64,000 nucleotides of DNA from NCBI GenBank assembly GCA_008107755.1, contig VIRH01000087.1:124001-188000 (forward strand). Reading direction: 5' to 3'. Below are positions 1-6,224 of this stretch, one piece after another. The stretch is from Rhodobacterales bacterium (GTDB taxonomy: Bacteria > Pseudomonadota > Alphaproteobacteria > Rhizobiales > Stappiaceae). The notes beneath the pieces are model-generated. The model saw only the letters and a program-made list of their open reading frames with translations. It was not told the DNA's origin and did no database searches. Position 1 is the stretch's first letter, and each line of letters begins with the position of its first letter. Made by a program: the position numbers and the translations under genes.

Positions 1-217
1 CACTCGCCAGCAGCACCATCGCGGCCCAGACCCGCGCCCACGGCAGGGCGCCGGGACCGTCCAGGGCAAGCAGGGACAGGAGACCCGACGGATAAATGAG
101 CACGATCAGGGCGAGAAGGGATTGCAGGGCAAGATTGACAGCCAGAAGCCGGCGATAGGCATCACGTTTCCGCCGTGCATCCGACTGGCTCCAGCCCAGG
201 GACAGTGAATCGCTCAT
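1..217 (-). CDS. Membrane protein, C-terminus cut by window edge
   Basis: Reading from an ATG at 215-217, the frame stays open to base 1, giving about 72 residues with no stop. After a charged cytoplasmic-looking start (SDARRKRDAYRRLL) come two hydrophobic stretches, roughly residues 27-50 and 57-72, so this is an integral membrane protein. It starts 14 bases after the stop of the di-haem cytochrome gene on the same strand, so it is very probably the fifth gene of the dioxygenase operon. The visible part is too short to name a family. A DoxX-like or other small quinone-linked membrane protein is possible but unproven. Confidence 0.6.
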   Translation of the reverse strand, partial: MSDSLSLGWSQSDARRKRDAYRRLLAVNLALQSLLALIVLIYPSGLLSLLALDGPGALPWARVWAAMVLLAS

Positions 218-231
218 CTCGGACGTCCTTC

Positions 232-1794
232 TCAAAATGTCATCAGATACTGCAGGAGCGCGCTACGCTCCGCCGCGCCCAGCGTAGTGCCGTAGGCATG
301 GCCGCCATTGCCATTGCCTGGCGCTTCGGTGTCGAAGCAGAAACGGCCGTCGGGCTCCAGTCCACCGGCCTCGCAAGGCGGCGACAGGAAACCGCCGCGT
401 TCCGCATCCACGACGTCGCTCGCGCGCAGAAAGCGGACCGGACGCTCGGACGGCGGCAGCAGAAGATCGGCAAGAGTCGGCACGGACCCGTTGTGCAGAT
501 ACGGCCCCCGAAGCCAGAGCCCGTCGAGCGGCATGTTCGCGTAGCCGTCGGTCTTTCGGAAATGCCTGAACTGGTAGGGCGTTCCGGCGAACAACTCGTT
601 CAACTGACGATCGCGGAATGCCTCGGTATAGGAATCGAGCCGACCCCGGTCGGTGTCGATCCGGTCGGCGGGTTCGACCTCGCCGAGCACTTCTCCCTCG
701 AAGACATACCGCCCTTCGTTGTCCCTGTATCCGTGACAGTCTGCGCAGGCGTCCATGTAGATCGCCCGGCCACGATCCATTGTCTCGCTGTCGGCCTTCA
801 CGCCAAGCGGACTTTTCGGGGGCTCGAGATCTTGCAGCCAGTACGCAATCCGGCCGATTGCGGCATGATCGACGGTTTCGGGCGTCACGCCGGCACCAAT
901 GGCAGCCGAAAGGTTGCGTTCCGCCAGCGAGGCGTTGTTGCCGTCCCAGTGCAGATTCATGCCTGCCTTCGCTCCCTGCAGGAAGATCGCGGGAAAGTCC
1001 GACGCACCTATGCGTTCCTCCACCGTCAGATCGGCAAGAGGGACATTCAGCTGAATAACCTTGTAGGGATTGAATGTATCGACGCGCCCCGGCCCCCAGG
1101 GCGGCTGGTCCTCGAGCAACGGGCGCAGCCGGGAAGCACGCACGATCAGCTCTTCCCTCAGTCTCGGCAGCACCAGAAACCGCCAATACAGCTTCTCGAG
1201 CGGTCCGAGACGCTGACCGCTTTCCCTGATCGCCTCGAACACCGCATCACCCGACAGTTTCTCCGAGTAGGCGGCTGACAGGATGAAGCTGATGAACGTT
1301 TCGAGCCGAAGATTGTTCGACGGCATGCCTGCAACGATCCTGCGCGCCGCCCCCTCGCTCTCGCGCACAGTCCCGACATGGCACGTCGCGCAGTTGAACC
1401 AGACCAGGTCAACACCGCGATATCGGCGCTGCGCAATACCGATGGGAAGCTGCAGGCGCTCGCCGTTCTTTTCCTCGTAGAGAAACCCGAACGCTTCGTA
1501 GTCCTTTCGTCCCTGGAAGGAATCCTTGAAGAGATAGGGCAGTGCAAGCCACAGCTTCTTCGGAATTCCGCTCGTCGGCTCGGCGCCGATCGATCCGTAT
1601 TTGAAATGCTCTTCCGGATCGGCGTAGGAGGGTGTGGTTTCGCGCAGGATGGAAACCGCACCGACGATTGCGATGATCAGGACAACGAACAGAAAAACGA
1701 TCAGGGCGAGAAGTGTCAGGAAGAGCGGCCGCGTCACCTTCCGGCGCCGGGCCAGTTCGCGTTCCACAAGTGTGGGATAATAGGGATCGGCCAT
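232..1794 (-). CDS. Membrane-anchored di-haem cytochrome c, MauG/RoxA-like
   Basis: A 520-residue protein with an N-terminal anchor (residues about 21-50, strongly hydrophobic) and a periplasmic body. Two haem c motifs are visible: CATCH at 135-139 and CADCH at 350-354. A later segment reading RGPYLHNGSVPTL matches the conserved C-terminal motif of the cytochrome c peroxidase/MauG and RoxA-type di-haem families. It probably moves electrons at, or performs oxidative chemistry on, the periplasmic face of the inner membrane. It starts 12 bases after the OYE gene and is followed 14 bases later by a membrane protein, so it belongs to the dioxygenase operon. Whether it is an electron carrier or an oxygenase/peroxidase cannot be told from sequence. 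Confidence 0.85.
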   Translation of the reverse strand: MADPYYPTLVERELARRRKVTRPLFLTLLALIVFLFVVLIIAIVGAVSILRETTPSYADPEEHFKYGSIGAEPTSGIPKKLWLALPYLFKDSFQGRKDYEAFGFLYEEKNGERLQLPIGIAQRRYRGVDLVWFNCATCHVGTVRESEGAARRIVAGMPSNNLRLETFISFILSAAYSEKLSGDAVFEAIRESGQRLGPLEKLYWRFLVLPRLREELIVRASRLRPLLEDQPPWGPGRVDTFNPYKVIQLNVPLADLTVEERIGASDFPAIFLQGAKAGMNLHWDGNNASLAERNLSAAIGAGVTPETVDHAAIGRIAYWLQDLEPPKSPLGVKADSETMDRGRAIYMDACADCHGYRDNEGRYVFEGEVLGEVEPADRIDTDRGRLDSYTEAFRDRQLNELFAGTPYQFRHFRKTDGYANMPLDGLWLRGPYLHNGSVPTLADLLLPPSERPVRFLRASDVVDAERGGFLSPPCEAGGLEPDGRFCFDTEAPGNGNGGHAYGTTLGAAERSALLQYLMTF

Positions 1795-1806
1795 GTCTGC
1801 GTGTCC

Positions 1807-3141
1807 TTACCTCGGGATCACCAGCCGGCTTCGCGGCGTGTAGATGGTCATGATCTCGTCGATCATCGCCTGATAGGACTCGAACCGTGCCTCCTCGTAG
1901 CAGCCCATCGGGTTCTTCGGTGCGTTCAGCAGGCACTTGTTGCAATAGGTGCAGGGACGTTCGGGCAAATCGGCGCCCGCGGCCCACTGCTTCACGAGGT
2001 CGTTGTTGGCGACCAGCGAGCGGGCGATCGCGACGGCGTCGAATTCGCCGTTTTCCAGCCCCTCTCGTATCAGGGACGCAGACTGATAACCGCCCGTGCT
2101 TATGACGGGGATGGTCACCGCAGCGCGGATCGCGGCCGCCTCGTTGCGGCTGACGCCTTCCACCGGCAACCCGCGCTTCATCCGGAACCACAGCCAGCGG
2201 AATATCGGTCGAAGCATCGGGTATCGGAACAGGAGGAAGTTGCGGAAGCCGTGAACGCCGGACGAAATCATCGCGTCATAGGTCACCGCCAGAAGCTCCA
2301 GCGGCAAATCTCCCGGCGGGTTGAGCGGATGCGGAAACAACGACCCGGTCGACACGTGAATGGCATCGGCGCCCAGCACCTCGCACCACTGCGCGACCTG
2401 AATCGTGTCCGTCAGGTCGTTTCCCTTCTTCTCCCATGGCAGGACGTTGTTCCTGTCGACGGCACTCAGCTTGACCTGCAGATGAAAGTCGCGGCCGACC
2501 GTCTCGCGGATCGCCGCGATGACCTCCAGCAGGAACCTTGCCCGGTTGCGCAGGGAGCCGCCATATCCGTCGGTCCGGTCGTTGATGCCCGAGCTGAGGA
2601 ACTGGGTGAAAAGATAGCCGTTGGCAGCATGCAGCTCGACCCCGTCGAGCCCTGCATCCTGCGCGCGCCGAGCCCCCTCCGCGAACGCCCGAACCAACCA
2701 GGCAATCTCACCCTGGCTCATGGCGCGACAGAGAAACCCGTGCAGGGTTTCGGCGTTGCTTGTGGCGCTCAGGGACGGTCGCATCTGGTTGTGAACGCCG
2801 GGAAGATCCATCTGGCGACCAGAATGGCTGAGCTGAAGAATGAACTTGGCGCCATGCTCTTGAACAGCGTTGCCAAGTGTCTTCCAGAGCGGGATGAACT
2901 CGTCGGAATGGATCGTGGCGTAGCCTGCAATGATGCGCCCTTCCATCAGCACCGGCACATAGGACGAGATGATGGCGCCGACCCCGCCCTGCGCAAACTT
3001 GGTCTCCCAGTTGATGCGGGTCTGTGTCAGCGAGCCGTCCTCGTTGTCGAAGCGGCCAGAAATATTGGACCTCAGCACCCGGTTCTTGATTTCAAGGTTG
3101 CGGCTGAGCTTGAGCGGGGAAAAGAGGATGTCGTCGCTCAT
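1807..3141 (-). CDS. Old-yellow-enzyme family NAD(P)H:flavin oxidoreductase with Cys cluster
   Basis: A 444-residue FMN-binding TIM-barrel protein. The active-site pair HAAN (His171, Asn174), the upstream QLSHSGRQ segment and the downstream DRTDGYGGSL segment are those of the OYE/2,4-dienoyl-CoA reductase family, which usually reduces activated C=C bonds. Near the C-terminus lie C397, C400, C403 and C414 (CTYCNKC then ten residues then C). This spacing is close to the 4Fe-4S motif of trimethylamine dehydrogenase and dienoyl-CoA reductase. The second, FAD/NAD-binding half of those enzymes is absent. Its ATG overlaps the stop of the upstream P450-like gene by 4 bases (ATGA), indicating translational coupling. 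The substrate is unknown; in this operon an oxidised fatty acid is plausible. Confidence 0.88.
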   Translation of the reverse strand: MSDDILFSPLKLSRNLEIKNRVLRSNISGRFDNEDGSLTQTRINWETKFAQGGVGAIISSYVPVLMEGRIIAGYATIHSDEFIPLWKTLGNAVQEHGAKFILQLSHSGRQMDLPGVHNQMRPSLSATSNAETLHGFLCRAMSQGEIAWLVRAFAEGARRAQDAGLDGVELHAANGYLFTQFLSSGINDRTDGYGGSLRNRARFLLEVIAAIRETVGRDFHLQVKLSAVDRNNVLPWEKKGNDLTDTIQVAQWCEVLGADAIHVSTGSLFPHPLNPPGDLPLELLAVTYDAMISSGVHGFRNFLLFRYPMLRPIFRWLWFRMKRGLPVEGVSRNEAAAIRAAVTIPVISTGGYQSASLIREGLENGEFDAVAIARSLVANNDLVKQWAAGADLPERPCTYCNKCLLNAPKNPMGCYEEARFESYQAMIDEIMTIYTPRSRLVIPR

Positions 3142-4061
3142 GCCCGCTCCCCCACCTTTTCCGCATCTTCATCGGCGGCCGCTTCCCCGCCCGTCGCCGC
3201 GTGCCAGACATGGTCCAGCAGCACCGGAACGGCCCTGTGCGCCGGGCATCGGCTCCATCCGGCTGTCAGAAAGGCCGTGCCTCCACCCGGATCAGCCTCA
3301 TTCGCCTTTGCCGCCTCCAGAAGGACCAGCGTTCCCTCGGAGACCGTCCCGACCCTTGAGACGCCCGGCCCCGGAGCCTGCCGCACGACTGTTTGCGGCG
3401 CGGCGAGCGTACGAATGACAGCCCTTTCACGCGCCGCCCCGTCTTCCCAGCCCGGGCGTTCCAGAAGGTTGGCCATTTCTGTAAATGCGGCGGCGAGATT
3501 GTGCACCGCTATTCCCGTGGCATGAACGGCCGCGAAATCGCCGGAGCAACGTTTCAGGAGAACCTGCTTGGCACGGCTCAATTGTCCGGTGATGGACCAC
3601 CAGAAAGACAGGAGCGGATTGCGCGTCTTCAGCGCCCGGTCCAGCAGCAGAGCTGCATCCCAGCTTTCGTCATCTGCTTGAAATTCCGGGTCGAACATCC
3701 GCCCGACGAGCCGCTGCGACGCAAGGCCTATCTGCCTTGGGTCGCTGATCCGCATGGCCTGAACGACCGCCTCTATGCCGCCGGGATCAAAGGCACGATT
3801 GTCCGCAAGAGCATCGAGACGCTGCTCCAGTTGCTGTTGGTTTCGCGCCCGATCCGCATCGCCGCGCAGCGCGATGCTGGGAAGCGGAACTCCCCGGATC
3901 GACATGACCGAGCGTATCCGGCCGGCGAGGATGCGGTTGAGCAGCGGCCCTTTGCGCCGGAAACCACGATCGAGCGCCGGATCGTCCGCCAGAGCCCGAA
4001 CTTCCTGCGGCACGTCCGTGAGGATGAGGTCTGCCAGCAGCGGAAGCTTCAACCGTCTCAT
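3138..4061 (-). CDS. Degenerate cytochrome-P450-like protein
   Basis: A 307-residue protein. I chose ATG 4061, which begins MRRLKLPLLADL ten bases after the dioxygenase stop; a longer frame would run into that gene. The order of segments resembles a shortened P450: residues 10-33 look like the P450 N-terminal strand/B-helix region (ILTDVPQEVRALADDPAL), 180-205 like helix I, 209-228 like helix K and the following strand (IRTLAAPQTVVRQA), 243-258 like the TLVLLEAAKANEADP stretch, and 268-274 (GWSRCPA) like the haem-thiolate loop, with C272 as candidate ligand. The Glu of ExxR is replaced by Ala214 and the usual Phe is shifted by one. The fold assignment is my inference by eye; an unrelated helical protein is the alternative. 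Confidence 0.55.
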   Translation of the reverse strand: MRRLKLPLLADLILTDVPQEVRALADDPALDRGFRRKGPLLNRILAGRIRSVMSIRGVPLPSIALRGDADRARNQQQLEQRLDALADNRAFDPGGIEAVVQAMRISDPRQIGLASQRLVGRMFDPEFQADDESWDAALLLDRALKTRNPLLSFWWSITGQLSRAKQVLLKRCSGDFAAVHATGIAVHNLAAAFTEMANLLERPGWEDGAARERAVIRTLAAPQTVVRQAPGPGVSRVGTVSEGTLVLLEAAKANEADPGGGTAFLTAGWSRCPAHRAVPVLLDHVWHAATGGEAAADEDAEKVGERA

Positions 4062-4071
4062 GACCCTGCTC

Positions 4072-5919
4072 CTACGCCGCGCCGTTCTTCCAGGGGAAGA
4101 ACGGGTTGCGGGCATCGCCCAGACTGCTTTCAAGCTCCGGAAAATGCCGTTTCAGGACACTGGCAAATCCGTTCTCCATCACCCACTCGAAACCGGCACG
4201 GGTATAGATCTCCGGCCGGAAATCGTCGGTAAAGAAACGATCGCTCTTGAGCCGGCGGGACGCCATCAGGATGAAGATCCGGAAAGCAGTGTCCGAAAAG
4301 CCGAAACGATAGGGCTGCCCGCGCGCTGATTGGGATTCGGCCAGAGTTCCGACCAGAAGATCGACCTTCTCGACGGAGTCGTCATAGACCTCCGCCAGTT
4401 CCTTCTGCCAGGTCTCGTTGCTTGTAATGTCGGCGAAAGTCTTGGGAACTCTCATGCCGGTCAGCCTTCGAAATTCCGCGAAACGCGGCACGCCGCGCTC
4501 CCGGTCCCGCAGGATGTCGACCGCAGCAAGGTCGATGAAGCGTTCGGGATCTCCCCCTTTGGAAAGCGCCCGCAAGGCATCGGGAAAATTATGGAGCGTT
4601 AAAGCCCCCGGATGAGAGGTGGCGAGAGAATATATGACGTCCGGCAGCGTCACGTCGGAATAGATCTTCCCCCGAACGCCGGTCATGGAGACATCCTTCA
4701 AGGGCGCTGTCAGAAGCTCGGAATTGTCCTGAAGGCGGCGGAAGGAAATCTCGTCCGGCAGCAGGGAATGCAGGCGATAGACCGCCGCAAACTCTTCGGT
4801 CATGGCATAGGGGGCGCCGTGGTGATCGGCAGGCGATCCCATGAGGCCGTTGACCACCTCGCTGTCCGAAAAGCGGGCGAAGCTCCTGGCAAAGCGCTCG
4901 CCGGTCAGGCCCCAGAAGTTGCCGCGCATCAGCATGCGGCCCTTGTCGGAATCCATCAGGGCCGGCGTCCATTCAATGGTATGGATTTTGGCAAGAAGCG
5001 CGGCATTCACGAGGCGCGCCTTCTGGAAGAGCCATTCGCCGCTGGCCCGCGGATGTTCCCCGGCAAGCCTGTCGACGATGGAATTGTGCTCGCGAGCGAA
5101 CAGGGTATGAAGCGCCGAAAGGCCGATCCACCAGTTGCCGTTGACCCCTGCCAGTTCCAGTCCCGGATTGTTCGCATCTTCCGGAAGATGTCCGTTCTCA
5201 TCCAGCCACAGCTTACCGTTTTCGAGCATCTGCCCGGTCTTCGGATCCGTCCTCAACCGGTCGCAGATTTCCTTGCTCGACCCATAGATCTGCGAGCCGT
5301 CCCACCAATGGGTTTCGGTATTGCGGAACGTCGTCGGACGGCCCTTGTCATGATCGTTGAGATCCGCGTCCCCGGTTGTTGCGGGAAGCGTCATCGGTCC
5401 GTGAGGCCAGTCGTCGTCGTCCGCCAGAGGAATATCCAGAAGGGTTTCCTTGTTGTTCGGTCCGTGGCTCAACCAGTCATGAACCATGAACTGGATCCAT
5501 GCCGGCACGAAGAGGTTGAGATGGGGAACGGGCTGAAAGCTCTGCCGCGCAAGCAGTTTTGAGGAGACCAGCCGGGGGCTCGGGTCCATCAGCACATCGC
5601 CCGTCTCCGCATAGGACGATTTCAGCGGCACGTTCCGGCCGAACCGCGTGCCCGCCATGCCCATCCACGGCCTGGCGAGATCGTTGTGGCTGCCGTCATG
5701 CGTCCTGAAACCGACGACGTCGAAGTCGTCGTCGCGCGCGGGCGACACCGGCGCGGTTTCCGTATCGGTCAGATTTGTCTTTCGCAGGTTCACCCTGTGC
5801 CCGAGAACAAGCACGACGGCAGGAAGGAACGGCCACTGATGCCATACCCTCACGTTTTCGGTCAGTCGGGAAAAGGCGCCGAGAGCTCTATCCAGGAGCC
5901 CTGGATTGTAACCGGACAT
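4072..5919 (-). CDS. Haem-dependent fatty-acid dioxygenase (alpha-DOX/COX-like peroxidase family)
   Basis: A 615-residue animal-type haem peroxidase. I chose ATG 5919, preceded by a G-rich Shine-Dalgarno; the frame is open 38 codons further upstream. The distal haem His is in QFMVHDW (His147). The segment EEFAAVYRLHSLLPD supplies Tyr381 and His384, the Tyr-x-x-His arrangement of cyclooxygenase (Tyr385/His388) and plant alpha-dioxygenase (Tyr386/His389), where the Tyr forms the radical that attacks the fatty acid. LHTLFAREHN (around 271-280) is also typical of the superfamily. No signal peptide is evident. It is the first gene of a five-gene operon, so the product hydroperoxide may pass to the P450-like and OYE proteins. 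Substrate and regiochemistry are not predictable here. Confidence 0.85.
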   Translation of the reverse strand: MSGYNPGLLDRALGAFSRLTENVRVWHQWPFLPAVVLVLGHRVNLRKTNLTDTETAPVSPARDDDFDVVGFRTHDGSHNDLARPWMGMAGTRFGRNVPLKSSYAETGDVLMDPSPRLVSSKLLARQSFQPVPHLNLFVPAWIQFMVHDWLSHGPNNKETLLDIPLADDDDWPHGPMTLPATTGDADLNDHDKGRPTTFRNTETHWWDGSQIYGSSKEICDRLRTDPKTGQMLENGKLWLDENGHLPEDANNPGLELAGVNGNWWIGLSALHTLFAREHNSIVDRLAGEHPRASGEWLFQKARLVNAALLAKIHTIEWTPALMDSDKGRMLMRGNFWGLTGERFARSFARFSDSEVVNGLMGSPADHHGAPYAMTEEFAAVYRLHSLLPDEISFRRLQDNSELLTAPLKDVSMTGVRGKIYSDVTLPDVIYSLATSHPGALTLHNFPDALRALSKGGDPERFIDLAAVDILRDRERGVPRFAEFRRLTGMRVPKTFADITSNETWQKELAEVYDDSVEKVDLLVGTLAESQSARGQPYRFGFSDTAFRIFILMASRRLKSDRFFTDDFRPEIYTRAGFEWVMENGFASVLKRHFPELESSLGDARNPFFPWKNGAA

Positions 5920-6062: not shown

Positions 6063-6140
6063 TTTAGCAAAACTGAAAACTTACGTTATGTCAATTAATG
6101 ATTGATCGGGCCCGATTTTCTACCAGTGGAAGAAAAATGA

Positions 6141-6166
6141 CCCAATGAGGTTGTAACCTCATCGGG
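6141..6166 (-). terminator. Rho-independent terminator of the sldB-sldA-like operon
   Basis: On the minus strand, an 11-base stem (CCCGATGAGGT pairing with ACCTCATTGGG, one G-U pair) with a 4-base loop is followed by TCATTTTTC. It lies about 60 bases past the stop of the PQQ dehydrogenase. A second hairpin with perfect 11-base arms at 6189-6199 and 6205-6215 lies closer to the stop but lacks a T run. Confidence 0.7.
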
Positions 6167-6224
6167 CCATACTTGCCTGGCTTTCAACGGATCGCCGATC
6201 TGACATCGGCGATCCGGTCAGGCG

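Follow-up and report, generated by a model that had tools for sequence, protein, structure and literature searches.

Oxylipin synthesis by paired dioxygenases and cytochromes P450 (P450s) is described for fungi, plants and animals (PMC13049297). Do bacteria possess a version of their own? The question is raised by five genes at the start of a 64,000-nucleotide stretch of DNA from a Rhodobacterales bacterium (assembly GCA_008107755.1, contig VIRH01000087.1, positions 124,001 to 188,000 of the forward strand), which we call the window throughout. An earlier note, made from the sequence alone, had read these genes as a split bacterial oxylipin system composed of a dioxygenase, a P450-like protein, an old yellow enzyme (OYE) and a membrane cytochrome. 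We followed up this reading computationally. The genes form a conserved operon that begins with a fatty-acid alpha-dioxygenase (alpha-DOX) and continues with a protein of predicted P450 fold, a flavoprotein with a four-cysteine motif and a di-haem protein of predicted RoxA-type fold. The gene set probably makes an oxidised lipid, and we incline, by a small measure, to the view that it encodes one split bacterial dioxygenase-P450 pathway of lipid oxidation, of the oxylipin kind. An open-access literature search, with most subscription papers outside its coverage, found no paper on this five-gene set.

Conservation of the operon

All five genes lie on the minus strand and follow one another with gaps of 10, -4, 12 and 14 bases, an arrangement that the earlier note had reported and that is read directly in the sequence. 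Is it more than a chance neighbourhood? The scan for alpha-DOX found 149 relatives, from which 80 loci were kept. The same five genes occur in the same order at 18 of these (L007-L019, L021, L023, L028, L029, L031), and the window, L195 and L196 bring the arrangement to 21 loci overall; a lack of conservation among the neighbours, which the earlier note had named as evidence against its reading, was looked for and not found. The loci span many Alphaproteobacteria as well as two isolates of Ectothiorhodospira (Gammaproteobacteria). Two entries may be misbinned, namely an Anaerolineae metagenome-assembled genome (MAG) that is nearly identical to L009 (L008) and a Burkholderiales MAG beside L029 (L021). 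L014 and L018, and likewise L015 and L017, are near-copies, while shared contigs (L198 and L009, L005 and L007, L006 and L013) are counted once.

When the flanks of 34 loci were compared, with the window and L002 taken as one contig, four gene clusters recurred in 3 or 4 loci and none in more; one is PQQ-dehydrogenase-like, and identities were assigned to part of the recurrent clusters. Since the five-gene order recurs and the flanking clusters do so this rarely, the arrangement is more than chance.

The 26 alpha-DOX of the window, the 18 kept loci and the variants L003, L020, L022 and L024-L027 form one group (SH-aLRT 100) in a quick, midpoint-rooted tree that carries a long-branch warning on the join to two Thermoleophilia rows. 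Variants of the layout occur: L024 holds all five genes in a different order and with two cytochromes, the locus of L027 stops inside gene 3, and genes 1, 2 and 5 of L003 and L020 are accompanied by an FAD-linked oxidase and by a cytochrome that is divergent. Among the 56 alpha-DOX rows outside the clade, the same gene-3 type accompanies 5, gene 4 accompanies 3, and genes 2 and 5 one each; these counts refer to the fetched stretches, many of them on short contigs.

How closely are the first two genes bound to each other? Gene 2 was found in 3 of 61 relatives with the window protein as query, in 2 of 385 genomes of the class and in 4 of 398 genomes of the phylum, seven genomes in all (G000, G032, G022, G208, G742, G515, G787), and an alpha-DOX immediately adjoins it in all seven. 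One of them, G032, is assigned to the genus of the window's own genome. Full-length alpha-DOX in the class sample is confined to the same two genomes as gene 2, the matches in the eleven other genomes hit being partial peroxidase ones. At L203 (G787), where 17 kb were fetched, alpha-DOX and gene 2 stand together and genes 3-5 are absent from this stretch. Only one of the 14 genomes behind loci chosen at the edge of the clade or outside it has gene 2, that of L046 (Acidobacteriaceae); there gene 2 lies beside the alpha-DOX and divergent from it, and this alpha-DOX falls outside the operon clade.

An alpha-dioxygenase and its partner of predicted P450 fold

Gene 1 (4072..5919, minus strand), the first of the operon, encodes 615 residues that match PF03098 (E 8e-104) and, over about 590-605 residues, the plant alpha-DOX structures 4kvj, 4kvl and 4hhr (E 3e-104 to 1e-98). 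The distal histidine and the Tyr-x-x-His motif that had been noticed at first sight are both confirmed, as His147 and as Y381-R-L-H384 with the catalytic Tyr381 and the proximal His384. In an alignment of 82 alpha-DOX (the window, L003 and the 80 kept loci; the alpha-DOX of L027 is in two pieces, and its better piece alone enters the residue counts and the tree), H313, Y381, H384, R555 and R556 are identical in every row. By hand count on the alignment to the plant structures, His313 and Arg556 are the equivalents of His-311 and Arg-559, residues that are said to have a substrate role in alpha-DOX. The distal H147, present in gene 1, is kept in 54 of the 82, and partial retention of this residue within the family is described (PMC8720084).

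Judged by its sequence, gene 1 encodes a fatty-acid alpha-dioxygenase of full length, in which every tested catalytic and substrate residue is present. The closest known enzymes are those of plants and cyanobacteria (rice, Arabidopsis; CalDOX, LepDOX); gene 1 is alike to the plant structures over nearly its whole extent and shares with them the catalytic tyrosine, both haem histidines and the His-311/Arg-559 equivalents; what sets it apart is its place in a tight operon with four more redox or membrane genes. Its identity to the rest of its own clade is 53-74% in the best segments. Of the mixed label given to it at first, cyclooxygenase (COX)- or alpha-DOX-like, the second half stands. A COX- or Ppo-type dioxygenase is ruled out by the plant alpha-DOX match at E 3e-104 against 2e-7 or weaker for COX-1, in a set of structure matches that included no Ppo structure. 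Because gene 1 is an alpha-DOX, one expects a 2-hydroperoxide (or Cn-1 aldehyde) as its first product, in place of a mid-chain hydroperoxide of the COX/Ppo type; alpha-DOX are described as giving Cn-1 aldehydes via the 2-hydroperoxide (PMC9305512, PMC8720084).

What, then, is the partner? Gene 2 (3138..4061, minus strand) encodes 307 residues, and its AlphaFold2 model, built from 23 sequences, reaches a pLDDT of 92.1 and a pTM of 0.88. A Foldseek search of this model against the PDB gave 159 chains at E <= 0.001, the best at E 1.1e-5. All 50 matches listed (of the 159) are P450s, including the fatty-acid P450s SPalpha and BSbeta, and P450BioI; TylHI, FrazP2, GfsF, RufO and a fatty acid decarboxylase are counted among them although their titles do not name them as such. 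Eight residues (C272, P273, A274, W269, P222, R227, H180, W286) are invariant in 24/24 homologues. The candidate thiolate cysteine, Cys272, is also kept in three further distinct homologues (L195, L196, L203), the most distant at 29% identity.

Local hhalign scores of gene 2 against two P450 alignments (29 and 24) lie above those for three unrelated controls (16, 13 and 15), a sequence signal that is suggestive only. For the acid-alcohol pair of helix I, the local alignment puts F-A-A of gene 2 opposite ETT, with a probability of only 1-5%; in hydroperoxide-using P450s an Asn, a Thr or a nonpolar residue may adjoin the haem in this helix (PMC13049297). Gene 2 is P450-like solely in its predicted fold and its conserved cysteine, and to this extent the first description of it as P450-like survives; a P450 sequence match does not accompany it.

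Flavoprotein, RoxA-type cytochrome and membrane protein

Gene 3 (1807..3141, minus strand) overlaps gene 2 by four bases and encodes a 444-residue flavoprotein of the Oxidored_FMN/OYE family (PF00724, E 4e-62) with a CxxCxxC...C motif. Its C397, C400, C403 and C414, together with H171/N174/Y176, are invariant in all 25 aligned homologues, an alignment that left out the L003-type loci without gene 3, L022, L027 and a weaker second match in L023. It is the best conserved partner, with 67-85% identity among aligned operon copies and 56-58% to five copies outside the clade. 2,4-Dienoyl-CoA reductase and trimethylamine dehydrogenase have a 4Fe-4S motif of similar cysteine spacing. Among solved structures the best matches to gene 3 are NADPH dehydrogenases, YqjM and 2,4-dienoyl-CoA reductase, with which the PF00724 domain is shared. 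Gene 3 keeps the four-cysteine motif and ends before the C-terminal domain of the two 4Fe-4S enzymes, in 2,4-dienoyl-CoA reductase an FAD/NAD domain (444 against 671 residues). The family assignment to the OYEs was thus sound in the earlier note, and its likening to 12-oxophytodienoate reductases (OPRs) was not: an OPR-type OYE is ruled out by the four-cysteine motif in 25/25, OPRs are not known to carry an Fe-S-type cysteine motif, and no OPR-specific features were found in gene 3. The scan that was applied to genes 4 and 5 found no hydrophobic stretch in it.

Gene 4 (232..1794, minus strand) encodes a membrane-anchored di-haem c-type cytochrome of 520 residues, in agreement with the first description: it carries a pair of CxxCH motifs and, at the N-terminus, a single hydrophobic stretch. 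The c-type haem motifs follow this stretch, and the cytochrome probably faces the periplasm. It matches PF21419 (E 5e-14) and as a whole protein scores 160.9 bits on NF040606, 'di-heme-cytochrome C peroxidase', for which the cut-off is 150; in a six-frame genome search, two pieces of gene 4 each fell under that cut-off. Its AlphaFold2 model (pLDDT 84.7) matches RoxA (4b2n) at E 8e-8 in Foldseek, with no other match under E 0.3, while its sequence is far below the NCBIfam RoxA cut-off (46.7 against 1000 bits). Both CxxCH motifs, the histidine of the MauG motif, the C-terminal axial histidine and the inter-haem tryptophan are invariant in 26/26 copies, H434, H499 and W283 being kept throughout. 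An equivalent of RoxA F317 is absent: A301 is aligned there, and the 26 copies have Ala (23), Asn (1), Thr (1) and Asp (1), never Phe. This alignment left out L017, the truncated copy in L005 and the second, shorter match in L046.

With RoxA/RoxB and the FadCcp proteins gene 4 shares the RoxA-type predicted fold, the two CxxCH motifs and a PYxHNGSVP motif, as well as the C-terminal axial histidine and the inter-haem tryptophan that appear in the published feature lists (PMC4496055, PMC6311187). The FadCcp proteins of Pseudomonas aeruginosa, PA2077/PA2078, are described as a 10S-dioxygenase and a 7,10-diol synthase, di-haem proteins modelled on RoxA (PMC4496055), and our likening rests on these published descriptions rather than on sequence. 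Gene 4 differs in its membrane anchor, in its length (520 residues against 634 for PA2077, a 1905-bp open reading frame) and in the alanine at the place of RoxA F317. The N-terminal haem of RoxA is described as the oxygenase site (PMC6311187). The earlier idea of a cytochrome that exchanges electrons is therefore to be revised: with its RoxA-type predicted fold, gene 4 may do more than carry electrons and be an oxygenase or peroxidase in its own right. A plain electron-transfer cytochrome was demoted after the fold match and stays a rival.

Gene 5 (1..217, minus strand) is truncated by the window edge. It is whole at L002:13795-14217:- on the same contig, where it extends 205 bases past that edge and encodes a 140-residue membrane protein with three hydrophobic stretches (34-52, 63-81 and 110-128). 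No Pfam family was found in the window's gene 5; its alignment comprises 24 homologues and left out L017 and L053. L197 has a single frame of 646 residues whose N-terminal part resembles gene 5 (35.4 bits) and which continues as a gene-4 homologue (513 bits), a hint that the two proteins act together. This fusion stands behind a 1150-residue GMC oxidoreductase-alpha/beta hydrolase protein (L197:3680-9140). Elsewhere, next to the complete five-gene operon of L196, genes 4 and 5 occur once more as a divergent pair (L196:2767-4696).

A proposed split dioxygenase-P450 pathway

How could these proteins work together? In a first step, which the conserved residues support well, alpha-DOX would grip a fatty acid by its carboxylate and convert it to the 2-hydroperoxide. 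We infer that gene 2 binds haem and converts this hydroperoxide: by analogy with plant allene oxide synthase (AOS), prostacyclin synthase (PGIS) and the P450 moieties of the linoleate diol synthases of fungi, it would use the hydroperoxide as its own oxygen donor, so that no reductase is needed, and cleave or rearrange the O-O bond. The four-cysteine OYE might then reduce an unsaturated carbonyl in the product of gene 2, or exchange electrons with the pathway. Anchored at the membrane together with gene 5, the di-haem protein of RoxA type could finally act on the lipid or drain periplasmic electrons, and the end product would be an oxylipin.

The nearest known design is that of the fungal Ppo enzymes and linoleate diol synthases, which likewise join a haem dioxygenase to a P450-fold partner able to use hydroperoxide (PMC13049297). 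Theirs is a fusion, whereas here two separate open reading frames are divided by a 10-base gap, the dioxygenase is of the alpha-DOX type, and the partner has about 300 residues and lacks both ExxR and the FGxGx[HR]xCxG consensus. A conserved bacterial version would show a separate route to the paired dioxygenase-P450 logic, would give bacterial alpha-dioxygenases a biological context, and would add a P450-fold family that the Pfam/NCBIfam models used here miss. A bolder proposal, which we put forward tentatively and with more doubt than belief, is that gene 2 represents a family of haem-thiolate proteins dedicated to alpha-DOX that is new and invisible at the sequence level, its members being minimal in size (about 300 residues) and without ExxR, and that it forms the first bacterial two-protein dioxygenase-P450 hydroperoxide isomerase or lyase, acting in series with a periplasmic lipid oxygenase of RoxA type. 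If true, three haem enzymes, of the haem-b, haem-thiolate and di-haem-c kinds, would make up a whole trans-envelope oxylipin pathway.

Several observations, on gene 2 and on the gene set, weigh against a pathway of this kind. The global fit of gene 2 to the 50 listed P450 structures is moderate (TMq 0.34-0.60, root-mean-square deviation 6-15 Å). It lacks ExxR, with Glu in 0/24 and Arg in 15/24 homologues at the aligned positions. The FxxGx[HR]xCxG consensus is likewise absent from the 24 homologues: F264 is present in 22/24 and lies one residue farther from the cysteine than in the consensus, Gly stands at Cys-4 in 2/24, Ser at Cys-2 in 22/24 and Ala at Cys+2 in 24/24. Pfam and NCBIfam scans gave no family above chance, and phmmer and a PDB profile search no such PDB sequence, the chance-level matches at the head of the searches being PdxS (E 0.02) and, in one member, CHAD (0.0016). 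PF00067 was found at E <= 1 in 0/24 family members, and its two matches in the bacterium's own genome both lie elsewhere than gene 2. Against P450s, hhalign gave a local probability of 1-5% and globally no usable alignment. On the side of the gene set, alpha-DOX more often occurs without gene 2 than with it, gene 2 being present outside the clade in L046 only (56 rows, fetched stretch), and even within the clade the alpha-DOX of L022, L025 and L026 is joined by gene 5 but by neither gene 2 nor gene 4.

The loss of ExxR has a precedent. CYP157 is a P450 family described as lacking this motif (PMC3599690), so a P450 can lose it; gene 2 is alike in its (predicted) P450 fold, its kept cysteine and its lost ExxR, and differs in being unrecognised by the Pfam P450 model and about 100 residues shorter than usual P450s.

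Competing explanations

Are genes 3-5 part of the pathway at all? Two rhizobial plasmids have clusters that lack genes 1 and 2 but contain homologues of genes 3 and 4 and a sequence weakly matching gene 5 at 22-29 bits (L193:7445-19389, Rhizobium johnstonii pRL11; L194:7436-19344, a Sinorhizobium fredii plasmid). Next in these clusters come another RoxA-type cytochrome, a cytochrome-like protein of larger size and a GMC oxidoreductase; on pRL11 the larger protein has 929 residues and two CxxCH motifs, and a patatin-like phospholipase also belongs to the cluster. They are possible lipid-oxidation clusters without alpha-DOX. It thus seems that genes 3-5 belong to a module of wider occurrence, and that genes 1 and 2 alone are strictly paired. 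The gene-4 profile, moreover, matches 95 of 398 phylum genomes (E <= 0.001; 4 above 500 bits), which together with the rhizobial clusters indicates that the parts of genes 3-5 are not dedicated to the pathway; this too counts against it.

In another reading, genes 3-5 would be a general electron-transfer unit of flavoprotein, di-haem cytochrome and membrane anchor that serves various flavo-oxidases and was joined to alpha-DOX and gene 2 as a redox outlet only. Close to the redox idea of the earlier note, this is the strongest competitor, a real possibility that we nevertheless hold to be improbable. The plain electron carrier is kept as a rival because of the rhizobial clusters, with their GMC oxidoreductase and no alpha-DOX, and because of the gene 5-gene 4 fusion, which sits behind a GMC-hydrolase protein; a homologue of an FAD-linked oxidase near alpha-DOX in L003, L020, L036, L085 and L203 speaks for it as well. 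Against this stand the predicted fold of gene 4, that of RoxA, whose N-terminal haem is the described oxygenase site (PMC6311187), and the combination of a cytochrome that is probably periplasmic with a flavoprotein in which no hydrophobic stretch was found.

Alternatively, the split pathway could be no biosynthesis but fatty-acid alpha-oxidation for catabolism or detoxification, with no oxylipin made for its own sake. Alpha-DOX would then shorten fatty acids to aldehydes, gene 2 would destroy leftover hydroperoxide, the OYE would clear reactive enals and the di-haem protein would be a periplasmic peroxidase. The described route of alpha-DOX to Cn-1 aldehydes through the 2-hydroperoxide (PMC9305512, PMC8720084) agrees with this, as does the score of gene 4 above the NF040606 peroxidase cut-off as a whole protein, though its pieces score under it. 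For P. aeruginosa, a proposal holds that the diol synthase detoxifies the hydroperoxide of the dioxygenase (PMC4496055); the analogy, a second di-haem enzyme that removes a toxic hydroperoxide, fits the oxylipin and the detoxification readings alike. We regard catabolism as unlikely: the flanking genes, recurring in at most 4 of 34 loci, tie no further catabolic step to the operon, and the rarity of gene 2 (3/61, 2/385, 4/398) better suits an accessory product than housekeeping catabolism.

Lastly, gene 2 could be a P450-fold scaffold, no longer haem-binding or catalytic, that assists alpha-DOX as an accessory subunit or chaperone, the active pathway consisting of alpha-DOX, OYE and cytochrome. 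This would account for the missing ExxR, the Ser at Cys-2, the short chain of about 300 residues, the lack of a Pfam P450 score and the two loci outside the clade (L043, L053) that have these three genes in genomes where gene 2 was not found (G803, G804), but it is quite improbable, since P222, R227, W269, C272, P273 and A274 of the expected haem pocket are invariant in 24/24 and in the 29%-identical copy, which a haem-free scaffold would not need, and since CYP157 is described as lacking ExxR too (PMC3599690).

Neighbouring genes

Upstream of the first gene, a terminator-like hairpin (6137..6170, minus strand; a 15-pair stem with a T tail, a match to the consensus only) stands between the operon and a gene for a pyrroloquinoline quinone (PQQ)-dependent dehydrogenase, and marks the operon's putative upstream boundary. 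The dehydrogenase gene lies just beyond it at window:6225-9068, and related proteins occur near alpha-DOX in L003, L043 and L046.

Further oxidases accompany alpha-DOX at other loci. The FAD-linked oxidase is located at L003:11570-12949, L020:6026-7471, L036:10734-12161, L085:6556-8136 and L203:4598-5989, in L036 directly behind alpha-DOX; FAD_binding_4 was detected in three scanned copies and ALO in two. A lipoxygenase-family protein (PF00305, E 1.5e-8 in L057) is found directly behind alpha-DOX in the Nitrospira loci L055, L057 and L059, and upstream of it, within about 0.8 kb, in the Pseudonocardiales loci L078, L079 and L086.

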